A program made the position numbers and the translations under genes. Of a stretch of 64,000 nucleotides of DNA, positions 2,339-5,377 are shown piece after piece. The notes under the pieces were generated by a model. The model was not told the origin of the DNA. It saw nothing but the letters and a program-made list of their open reading frames with translations, and searched no databases. Source of the stretch: Roseicyclus salinarum (lineage in GTDB: Bacteria > Pseudomonadota > Alphaproteobacteria > Rhodobacterales > Rhodobacteraceae); contig NZ_JARRSA010000001.1 in NCBI RefSeq assembly GCF_029624655.1, positions 124,001-188,000 on the forward strand. Direction: 5' to 3'. The stretch's first letter is position 1. Each line of letters opens with the position of its first letter.

Positions 2339-3466
2339 TCATTCGAACGCGGCGTAGTCCGGCTCACCGTCGAGGACGGCAAGCTCGGGCCAGTTGCGGA
2401 TCACGTTCAGGCCATTGAGCGGCTGCTGATAGCCCTGGTGGCAGGTCCGGCAGGCGAGCTTGGGCACGTCCGCGTAGATCGGCCCCAGACGCTCGGCCGG
2501 AAGCACGTCCTGAAGCGGCAGGATGTATTGCTCCAGCTGCTCCTGAACCATGATGATCCCGAGGCTGGCCGTCGCCCATTGGGGCGTGACCTGGCTGGGG
2601 TCGTAGAACGCCCGGCTGTTGTGGCAGAACACGCAGTTCACGCCGAGCGAGTTCGCGAAGTAGTTCATGAAGGCGTAGGTGCGCTCGGTCTGCTGGATCA
2701 GCGGATCTCCCGGAAGGTTCTCCACCCGGCTGGCCAGATCGTGCACGGCGATCGGATTGTAGCCGCCCTCATCGTTCACGAGCAGGTAGTGCTGCAGATA
2801 GTCCGACGGAAGGGACGTGTAGTTCGAGACCATCGTGACCCGGTTCTGGACGGCCGGCCAGCCACGGACGTTCTCGTTGATCCCGATCCACCCGTCCTCG
2901 TCCATGCCGCGGGTGTTGAACCAGACGTTGTTCGGCACCGGCTGTCCGCGGTGGCAGGTGTAGCAGGTGACGCCGACCTCCGCGTTGGCCTGAACGTGCG
3001 CCGCCCAGTTCTGGTTTATGTTCTGGGTCATCTCGATCATCGAGTAGGCCACCTGCGTCTGGTAGCTCTCGTTGCCGGGCTCGAGAAGGTCGGGGATACC
3101 GGTCCACGCCCGCATCGCCGTGAGGAGACGGTCGTAGTTCTCCTCGGTGACGTTGGCCAGCGACGGCGGGACGTCTTCCATCGTGTCGGCGGCCATTGCC
3201 GAGCCCGCGGCGGGAACCACCGGCTCGGAGGTCACGAAACCCGAGACCGTCGGATCGCCCGCTTCCAGATCGGAGACGAACTCCTGCACATGCATCCCGG
3301 TGCCGCGAGGCCCCGTCTGCATGCTGTCGGTCGCGAAGGGCTGCCCCCAGGCGACGATCATCGCTGCCACGAAGATCGCCGATCCCGCGATGCCCACCCC
3401 GATTGCGGGACCGAACACGTTGGTCGGGTTGTCCCGGTTCCAGTTGTCAAACCACTTGGGAAACAT
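2339..3466 (-). CDS. pufC: Reaction-centre cytochrome c subunit with three haem motifs
   Basis: Periplasmic multihaem cytochrome that re-reduces the photo-oxidised special pair. The 375 residues begin with an uncleaved-looking membrane anchor (about residues 19-40) and no lipobox cysteine. Only three CXXCH sites are present: C168-H172 (CYTCH), C278-H282 (CVFCH) and C339-H343 (CRTCH). Aligned from memory to the Blastochloris subunit, the first haem site should fall near residues 121-135, where the sequence is WTGIPDLLEPGNESY with no Cys, so haem 1 is missing. A triheme form is known from Rhodovulum sulfidophilum. It follows pufM by 3 bases, with GGGAGG ahead of its ATG. Confidence 0.95.
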   Translation of the reverse strand: MFPKWFDNWNRDNPTNVFGPAIGVGIAGSAIFVAAMIVAWGQPFATDSMQTGPRGTGMHVQEFVSDLEAGDPTVSGFVTSEPVVPAAGSAMAADTMEDVPPSLANVTEENYDRLLTAMRAWTGIPDLLEPGNESYQTQVAYSMIEMTQNINQNWAAHVQANAEVGVTCYTCHRGQPVPNNVWFNTRGMDEDGWIGINENVRGWPAVQNRVTMVSNYTSLPSDYLQHYLLVNDEGGYNPIAVHDLASRVENLPGDPLIQQTERTYAFMNYFANSLGVNCVFCHNSRAFYDPSQVTPQWATASLGIIMVQEQLEQYILPLQDVLPAERLGPIYADVPKLACRTCHQGYQQPLNGLNVIRNWPELAVLDGEPDYAAFE

Positions 3467-3469
3467 GGC

Positions 3470-4474
3470 TCACTGACCTCCCGCCGCGATGCCGCCGAAG
3501 TCCGAATAGGAGCCGTAGGCCTCATAGCCGTATGCGCCGAGATATTCGGGGGCGAAGTTGTGTTCCTGGGCCCAGATGAACCAGTTGTCCACCACGGTCC
3601 CGGTAAGCAGGATGCCGATCCCGCCGGTGATGGGCGTCAGCACCGCGAACCACCATGCCCAGCGGTGAATCCCCTCCATCGTGGCGTTGAAACCCATCGT
3701 CCAGCGCCAGAACAGGGCGGCGCGTTCCGTGGCCGTGCCGCGATCGTAGATCTGCTCGAGCTCCCGGTCGCCGCCGAAGCGGGAGACCGCGAGGATCGTG
3801 CCGCCGTGCATCGCGAAGAGAAGCACGGAGCCGTAGAGGAACACGATCGAGAGCGCGTGGAACGGGTTGTAGTAGAGGTTCCCGTAGCGGATCGAGAAGG
3901 CCGTGGTCCAGTCGAGGTGCGGGAAGATCCCGTAGGGCACCGCCTCGGACCAGCTTCCCATGAGGATCGGCCGGAACAGGCCGAGAACCAGGAAAAGCCA
4001 GATCGCCGCGAGGAATGCCCAGGCGATGTGCTTGCCCATCTTGTGCTGGGCCGCCAGCAGGTAACTGCGCACCCACCACATCATCACGGACACGAGCAGG
4101 AAGAAGCTGGAGATGATGTACCATCCGCCATCGTTCAGCGGCGGAAAGCTCAGGCCGTATTCCGGCCCCGGAGGCTCGAGCGCCAGCCAGAACAGCTGAC
4201 GGATGAATTCCGGGATCGACCAGCCGACCTGCGACAGCATGTTGAAACCGACGATGTTGAACCAGAGCGTTCCGGTCGCAAGGCTGATGAGCCCGGCCCA
4301 GCCCAGGTAGATCGGACCGAGCTGCGCGTTGCCGAGCCAGCCGGCGAGCTTGGAGAAGCTCGCGCCCTTGGTCCGCTCCCCTCCCAGGATGTTCTCCTGG
4401 AGCTCCATCCCCATCTCGGGTTCGCCTTGAACCTGAACCTGGGTGAAGATGTTCTGATATTCGAAGTAAGCCAT
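3470..4474 (-). CDS. pufM: Photosynthetic reaction centre M subunit
   Basis: Core membrane subunit that binds bacteriochlorophyll, bacteriopheophytin and the quinones with PufL. Expected ligands are all present, shifted by +4 from R. sphaeroides: H186 and H206 (chlorophyll side), then H223, E238 and H270 (non-haem iron). Five transmembrane segments are evident. The 334 residues include a C-terminal tail of about 25 residues beyond the Rhodobacter form (ending GGIAAGGQ), typical of reaction centres that hold a bound PufC. It is separated from pufL by only 3 bases and is co-transcribed with it. Confidence 0.98.
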
Positions 4475-4477
4475 GGT

Positions 4478-5377
4478 TCAGTTACCTCCCACGATAGCGG
4501 GCTGCATGGCGCCGTAGGTCTCGAGGCCGGTGCTGTCGTACAGCAGGGCGGGCTCGGGCCAGATCGGCAGCTGAAGCCACCAGTTCCACCATTCGGGCCA
4601 TCCGGACGTCCAGACGGGGCCGGAAATGATGATGCAGACCGCACTCCAGAACCCTGCGTTCAGCGCCAGCAGAAGCCCGAGCCGGTGAATGCCGAGCGTG
4701 CCGATGGAGTAGCCGATGAAGTCACGGAAGAACGTGTCCTCGTGATCCGGCGTCTTCGTCTCCTCCCCCTTTTCGGGGTTGGCCGCGGACAGGATCAGGC
4801 CGCCGTGCAGCGCAAGCGCCAGCGTCGTGGTGAAGAAGAACGTCACCGCGATCATGTGCGCCGGGTTGTAGTGGAAGTGCAGGTAGGCGTAGCCGACGTT
4901 CGAGACCCAGTCGAGGTGACTGAAGATCCCGTACGGGAAGCCGTGCCCCCACGCGCCCATCAGAAGCGGGCGGAACACCACCAGCGTCACGTAGGCGAGG
5001 ATCGCGAAGGCGAAGGCGAATGGCACATGGTAGCCGATGCCCAGCTTGCGGCAGATCTCGACCTCGCGCAGAGCCCAGGACACGAAGGCCCCGACCGCGC
5101 AGAAGGTGACGATCTGCCAGAGCCCGCCCTCGAGAAGCGGTGCGAAGCCCAGACCGTAACTGAGGTCGGGCGGCGCGATGTTTATCGTCCAGGGGTTGAA
5201 CGTGCCCTGCATGGCAGCACCCCAGAAGATCAGGATTGTTCCCAGCAGCGCAAAGAAGGCTGTCGTGACCCCGAAGAAGCCCACGTAGAATGGGCCGACC
5301 CAGAAGTCGAACAGATCGCCGCCGATCAGCGTCCCTCCGCGGACGCGGTACTTTTTTTCGAAGCTAAGCAAAGCCAT
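4478..5377 (-). CDS. pufL: Photosynthetic reaction centre L subunit
   Basis: Partner of PufM in the photochemical core. The ligands H154, H174, H191 and H231 are present, one residue later than in R. sphaeroides L, and five transmembrane helices can be followed. At 299 residues it is about 17-24 longer than usual: family members normally end soon after W-W-N-W-W-x-x-L-P-I-W (about 263-273), whereas this one continues with [20 protein letters not shown] and a Gly-rich end. The extension resembles the PufM tail in composition. The start fits the conserved [15 protein letters not shown]. Confidence 0.98.

Follow-up and report, generated by a model that had tools for sequence, protein, structure and literature searches.

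The pufC gene of Roseicyclus salinarum, which lies near one end of the 64,000-nucleotide stretch of DNA analysed here (the window), raises the question of what kind of reaction-centre cytochrome it encodes, and how the encoded protein came to carry three haem-binding motifs. The accessible text of a 2025 review gives four haems for most such subunits and three for that of Dinoroseobacter shibae, and it lists Roseicyclus mahoneyensis among the species with a bound cytochrome (PMC12654162).

The pufC product and its haem sites

In a profile search the R. salinarum pufC product matched PF02276 (CytoC_RC) at 333.9 bits, against a cut-off of 22.4, and it was the single match to this profile in the 3.95 Mb genome. 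The gene adjoins pufM, with a gap of 3 bases between the end of pufM and the start of pufC, and the order is pufL, pufM, pufC and then an ORF at 253-2229, which we take by name to be dxs (Table 1). The gene order described in the part of PMC6052148 at hand agrees with dxs at this ORF.

Table 1. Coordinates in the window of the puf genes and of the features of the PufC protein.
Feature	Position	Strand	Description	Basis
pufC	2339-3466	minus	375 aa, triheme reaction-centre cytochrome subunit, PF02276	ORF, profile match, motif count
pufM	3470-4474	minus	334 aa	
pufL	4478-5377	minus	299 aa	
Predicted N-terminal transmembrane helix	3344-3412	minus	residues 19-41; model pLDDT about 50 there	
Segment with its own history (putative haem-1-less cassette)	3041-3229	minus	residues 80-142	alignment, quartets, segment tree
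W121-Y135	3062-3106	minus	site of the absent haem-1 CXXCH	alignment
Met143	3038-3040	minus	predicted haem 2 sixth ligand; Cys in Rhodovulum	alignment
His157	2996-2998	minus	predicted haem 4 sixth ligand	assigned by homology
Haem 2 motif CYTCH	2951-2965	minus	residues 168-172	motif count
Met267	2666-2668	minus	predicted haem 3 sixth ligand	assigned by homology
Haem 3 motif CVFCH	2621-2635	minus	residues 278-282	motif count
Haem 4 motif CRTCH	2438-2452	minus	residues 339-343	motif count

Exactly three CXXCH motifs were counted in the protein, as a first-pass annotation of this DNA had read from the ORF, and its only cysteines are the six in these motifs. That annotation had also described the product as a triheme subunit with neither Cys nor CXXCH at the place expected for haem 1, and both points were upheld by an alignment of 110 distinct PufC rows (35 triheme, 75 tetraheme), in which the Cys, Cys, His and Met of haem 1 are present in 75 of 75 tetraheme rows and the CXXCH columns are gapped, the same columns each time, in 35 of 35 triheme rows. 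Five of the 114 distinct ORFs had been dropped from the alignment (L001, which is the window itself, and L041, L064, L082 and L084, which were short), and L085 gave no hit in the motif count. The dropped L064 (L064:5001-6096) is the pufC of Roseicyclus MAG M30B49, a broken frame with a best piece of 229 aa, perhaps through an assembly error.

A tetraheme reaction-centre cytochrome has four CXXCH motifs and the haem-1 Met; R. salinarum PufC has three, and Leu115, slightly upstream of W121-Y135, stands in for that Met. What it does have are the motifs of haems 2, 3 and 4 with Met, Met and His as ligands, the set of the D. shibae kind of triheme cytochrome, the assignment of ligand to haem being by homology. 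At position 143, Met is found in every tetraheme row (75 of 75) and in 34 of the 35 triheme ones, and Met267 and His157 are conserved in all 110. The sequence comparison supports the view that R. salinarum PufC is a triheme subunit which has lost its entire haem-1 site, Met and CXXCH together.

Residues 1-167 contain no Cys, which leaves no lipid-anchor Cys before the first motif; the cytochrome of Blastochloris viridis is lipid-anchored at its N-terminus according to the available part of PMC9640540. Residues 80-105 had been described as an inserted Ala/Pro-rich segment; they proved to be Ala/Pro-rich and not inserted, with a sparse column only at residue 100 (31 of 110 rows). An insertion was seen between haems 2 and 3, at residues 187-194 (GMDEDGWI, 2885-2908, minus strand), in columns filled in 2-4 of the 110 rows, and a second one at residues 231-235, in columns filled in 21 of 110.

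Relatives and distribution of the triheme form

Among PufC loci the nearest named relatives were Roseibacterium sp. SDUM158016 (88%), Roseibacterium persicicum (82%) and Roseicyclus mahoneyensis (81%), and judged by these identities the source organism groups with Roseibacterium and Roseicyclus. Ranked against solved sequences, R. salinarum PufC came closest to 8yy9_C (E 2e-154), followed by 9lts_C and then 9wqv_C, and 8yy9_C was also the best fold match of the modelled protein, at 61% identity, for a model of middling quality (mean pLDDT 67). The fold search lists 9lts under D. shibae and 9wqv under Rhodovulum sulfidophilum, and describes 8yy9 as a tri-heme complex from a marine photoheterotroph; judged by its title, 8yy9 is the structure of the D. 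shibae paper. Alignment with other PufC proteins, which had been proposed as a check on the missing motif, identified it as that of haem 1; the closest solved protein is that of D. shibae (8yy9).

The D. shibae subunit (8yy9, 9lts) is described in the accessible text of PMC12079452 as having three haems, no haem-1 pocket, a Leu in place of the haem-1 Met and Met/His sixth ligands. R. salinarum PufC resembles it in its three CXXCH motifs, in the Met to Leu change, in the sixth ligands and in the N-terminal helix, and the stretch WTGIPDLLE is common to both. The two are about 61% identical and differ in the 8-residue insertion 187-194 of R. salinarum, and D. shibae and the Roseicyclus group stand apart on both the PufC and the PufL plus PufM (PufLM) trees, some of the separating branches being unstarred. 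With the tetraheme cytochrome of Blastochloris viridis (1prc) the protein shares the PF02276 fold, 30% identity and haems 2-4, and differs in that 1prc has haem 1. R. salinarum PufC is therefore of a known triheme kind, which is hereby extended to the Roseibacterium/Roseicyclus group.

Close at hand are also tetraheme relatives, the Roseicyclus-like L017, L044, L045, L047, L048 and L049, in which the gene occupies the same place as R. salinarum pufC. In the two best of these rows the flanks are 75-76% identical to R. salinarum PufC (72-81% over the four triheme rows shown), yet they keep haem 1, and over residues 100-142 are only 24-27% identical to R. salinarum (24-39% over the rows shown).

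PufC was found in 73 of 394 family genomes sampled, 20 of them triheme and 53 tetraheme by motif count, which makes the triheme form not rare; five of five genomes of the genus, that of R. salinarum included, are triheme. Five genomes (G318, G015, G083, G058 and G198) were covered without flanking DNA, and 13 more were represented by named loci on the same contigs. In a class sample of 385 genomes PufC was present in 18, and the 17 besides that of R. salinarum, all from other families, had four motifs each; the tetraheme form is therefore most likely ancestral. In what was sampled, the triheme form is confined to the Rhodobacteraceae.

Origin of the haem-1-less stretch

We think it likely that R. 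salinarum PufC is a triheme cytochrome of the D. shibae kind, and that its haem-1-less stretch (residues about 80-142) arose a single time in the family, from a tetraheme form, and later passed by exchange among puf lineages as a small cassette within the gene. The ancestor of the Roseicyclus/Roseibacterium group would most likely have received it into a tetraheme gene. A wider proposal goes further: the haem-1 site, with about 60 residues, would form an exchangeable cassette, and intragenic recombination would have replaced the haem-bearing version by the single-origin haem-1-less one, and the reverse, in several puf lineages, so that a short swap could remove the haem or restore it. In our estimation this proposal falls just on the favourable side of even. 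The lineages behind the proposed exchange are Roseicyclus and L113/L114 with L102, both with a starred PufLM pairing, and less firmly L059/L116 with L093.

These lineages were compared in quartets, to which the lineage contributed one triheme and one tetraheme row and the remaining rows one of each; 12 rows were left out. Outside the segment the Roseicyclus quartets had 15.7 sites following lineage, against 4.5 following haem state and 3.7 a third pattern; inside it the numbers were 0.36, 9.64 and 0.22, where 3.17 lineage sites were expected at flank density. L113/L114 with L102 behaved like Roseicyclus outside the segment (17.6 lineage, 6.1 state, 3.4 third), as did L059/L116 with L093, a weaker PufLM pairing (13.2, 4.6, 4.2). 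No lineage signal was found in the flanks of L110, one of the three groups whose PufLM pairing is starred (5.5, 5.6, 6.6), or of L118, whose pairing is weaker (6.9, 6.2, 6.8), and little in those of D. shibae (8.1, 7.2, 3.5); in these three, transfer of the entire gene or loss of the signal may account for the result. Six pairs that are not near one another on PufLM gave no flank lineage signal either (lineage 3.9-6.8, state 6.0-7.9). In all twelve quartet comparisons the state pattern was dominant inside the segment. For each of three groups, none of 2000 permutations equalled the observed run of state sites, whose best limits were 78-150, 74-142 and 79-200; this shows that state sites are clustered and does not distinguish the cause.

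The same clustering could come about if haem 1 had been lost repeatedly and independently, the repaired loop converging each time on a WTGIPDL-type sequence since the fold needs it. The 32 columns most specific to haem state all fall within residues 80-137, about the site that was lost, as such a history would have it. Nor does the DNA in general carry a mark of recent exchange: in a comparison of 511 triheme pairs, identity at third codon positions was 0.50 in the segment and 0.52 in the flanks, and mean protein identity was about equal (0.59 versus 0.61). Recent exchange at the DNA level can on these third positions be set aside as the rule, few pairs standing out, and because neither measure is above that of the flanks the exchanges, if real, would be mostly old. 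The largest difference of the 511 pairs, picked from the top of the list, was that of L110 and L120, with 86% protein identity in the segment versus 60% in the flanks and third positions at 0.79 versus 0.60. We nevertheless regard repeated loss as unlikely. In nearly all triheme rows the stretch reads Y-x-R-L-x-x-A-M-R-x-W-T-G-I-P-D-L ... Y-Q-T, the tetraheme counterpart being F-x-R-L-M-x-A-M-T-x-W-V-A-P-x-x-G-C-A-Y-C-H ... Y-T-K, and T122, I124, P125, L127 and Q136 each recur in all but one of the 35 triheme rows, P125 failing in L034 only and the other four in L128 only; R119 recurs in 30 of these rows and Y111 in 31. Independent losses would also have had to remove the same CXXCH columns in 35 of 35 rows, to leave the shortage of lineage sites inside the segment, and to give every one of the 35 triheme rows a triheme nearest neighbour in the segment, whereas the nearest neighbour in the flanks is tetraheme for 15 of them (rows at least 85% alike in the flanks left out).

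If the triheme proteins were instead one old clade, descended vertically or spread by transfer of the whole operon, the scatter of haem states would be an error of weak trees and long branches. Our trees are of a quick kind with many open forks, and on the first PufC tree, built without residues 100-142, only two of the nine changes of haem state are forced by starred branches; moreover, a first AU test on the PufC flanks, with residues 80-99 kept (33 triheme versus 69 rows, six long tetraheme rows being left out and L127 and L128 placed outside the triheme clade), was compatible with a single triheme clade (p 0.10). On the PufLM tree of 102 rows, for which eight loci were unused and rows with identical PufL and PufM and equal state were merged, there are 14 changes, at least six of them forced by starred branches. 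A single triheme clade was rejected on PufLM (32 versus 69 rows, L143 outside the triheme clade, p 1.3e-7), in a test that is independent of the choice of 42 rows used below, the triheme grouping nonetheless having been known beforehand. With residues 80-142 removed, the flanks of 42 chosen rows gave ten changes and likewise rejected one triheme clade (p 5e-5), a value weaker than it looks, as this test was designed after the alignment and the segment results had been seen. The segment 80-142 alone gave one change in the same 42 rows, with the triheme rows as a single clade, and rejected the lineage clades of Roseicyclus (p 1e-4) and of L113/L114/L102 (p 2e-4), both of which are united by the flank tree (support 99.7 and, unstarred, 94.9).

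Tree error is further opposed by the six Roseicyclus-like tetraheme rows, which on the PufC tree belong to a 100* clade that also contains 16 triheme rows and on the PufLM tree fall together with triheme rows in sets supported at 96*/97*, and we hold such an error to be improbable. In the Roseicyclus group of the PufC tree the tetraheme rows branch, weakly, outside the triheme rows, and a change from tetraheme to triheme is suggested for this group. The opposite change, a regain of haem 1, is suggested for the tetraheme L102 (the same as L178), which on PufLM groups at 97* with L132/L133, both triheme, in a set of five whose other members are all triheme.

It is very improbable that the protein belongs with the triheme cytochrome of Rhodovulum, whose distal haem is Cys-ligated and of very low potential. 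The Cys ligand reportedly lowers the haem potential, a finding attributed to Alric et al. in 2004; the potential of this haem is about -160 mV. Because residue 143 of R. salinarum PufC is Met and not Cys, it should not have this low-potential haem. The Rhodovulum sulfidophilum protein (9wqv_C) is likewise triheme with haem 1 absent, and it was the third best solved match, but it is 39% identical and has a Cys opposite Met143, which is found at this column in one of 35 triheme rows (L128). The first-pass annotation had suggested that the lineage may be close to Rhodovulum, and this did not hold: the best loci are those of Roseibacterium and Roseicyclus, at 76-88% identity, and the Cys sixth ligand is absent. 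Triheme PufC has been known from Rhodovulum (PMC6256444, in the part available). The Rhodovulum-like L128 (genome G363) has flanks 50-52% identical to the nearest rows, and its segment shares little with other triheme rows (best identity 0.30).

That a sequencing or frameshift artefact hides a fourth motif, which had been considered for the region near residue 125, or that the gene is decaying, has next to no probability, as no supporting point was found, the frame is open and without stops (GC3 0.89), none of the three minus-strand frames holds a further CXXCH over residues 60-167, and five of five genus genomes have the same three-motif form.

Exchange of a haem-1-less cassette among puf lineages, the reading that we prefer, requires that different pufC copies meet in one cell. 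Whole photosynthesis clusters have been horizontally transferred in the family, with one replacement of pufC by pufX, according to the accessible text of PMC6052148, and photosynthesis clusters on plasmids and their transfer are reported in that of PMC6739100; either process would place different copies in the same cell. In the literature covered, which left subscription journals mostly outside and gives a weak negative for that reason, no account of exchange of the haem-1 segment was found. The mosaic pattern is less ordinary than the protein, which is of a known kind, and it merits a dedicated test. Sister lineages with and without haem 1 offer a natural experiment on the purpose of the distal haem, and they also put to the test the published idea, as given in the available part of PMC12079452, that triheme subunits are an intermediate between the tetraheme kind and the absence of any subunit. 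If it is true that haem 1 swaps in and out, it would be a tunable entry port and not a one-way loss.

Probable electron donors to the triheme subunit

Loss of haem 1 had been thought to alter the path from the electron donor, and this is plausible in so far as such a path has been modelled for the D. shibae homologue, where, in the accessible text of PMC12079452, an AlphaFold 3 model has cytochrome c2 docking close to the membrane and feeding haem 3 instead of haem 1; its authors add that other interactions are possible and that the haem potentials are unknown. By homology, the N-terminal helix would anchor R. salinarum PufC, soluble cytochrome c2 would dock near the membrane and reduce haem 3, and haem 3 would re-reduce the special pair, the distal haem-1 entry being unused. 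Direct feeding of haem 3 by c2, as modelled for D. shibae, is the most likely course in R. salinarum.

The R. salinarum genome encodes a c2-like protein with 52% identity to that of D. shibae (G000:C11:101533-101967), on the same contig and about 22 kb beyond the left end of the window. A PF00034 search of this genome did not list the protein and would be misleading if used alone; a profile search of the same single genome gave no match to PF01355 (HiPIP). At E 1e-15 a c2-like protein was found in 364 of 394 family genomes and in 18 of the 20 triheme genomes (absent from G106 and G233). With c2-like proteins so widely kept among triheme genomes and no HiPIP match in R. salinarum, neither loss of c2 nor use of HiPIP is supported as the cause of haem-1 loss.

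Two further loci of the R. salinarum genome encode cytochromes. The cytochrome ORF at L212 (310 aa) begins with a hydrophobic stretch, which suggests a membrane anchor, and continues with a long Ala/Glu/Thr-rich linker and then a cy/c552-like haem domain; its product may serve the reaction centre as a second donor. The short locus L208 has two cytochrome ORFs together, which we take by name to be SoxX-like and SoxA-like, hinting at thiosulfate oxidation.
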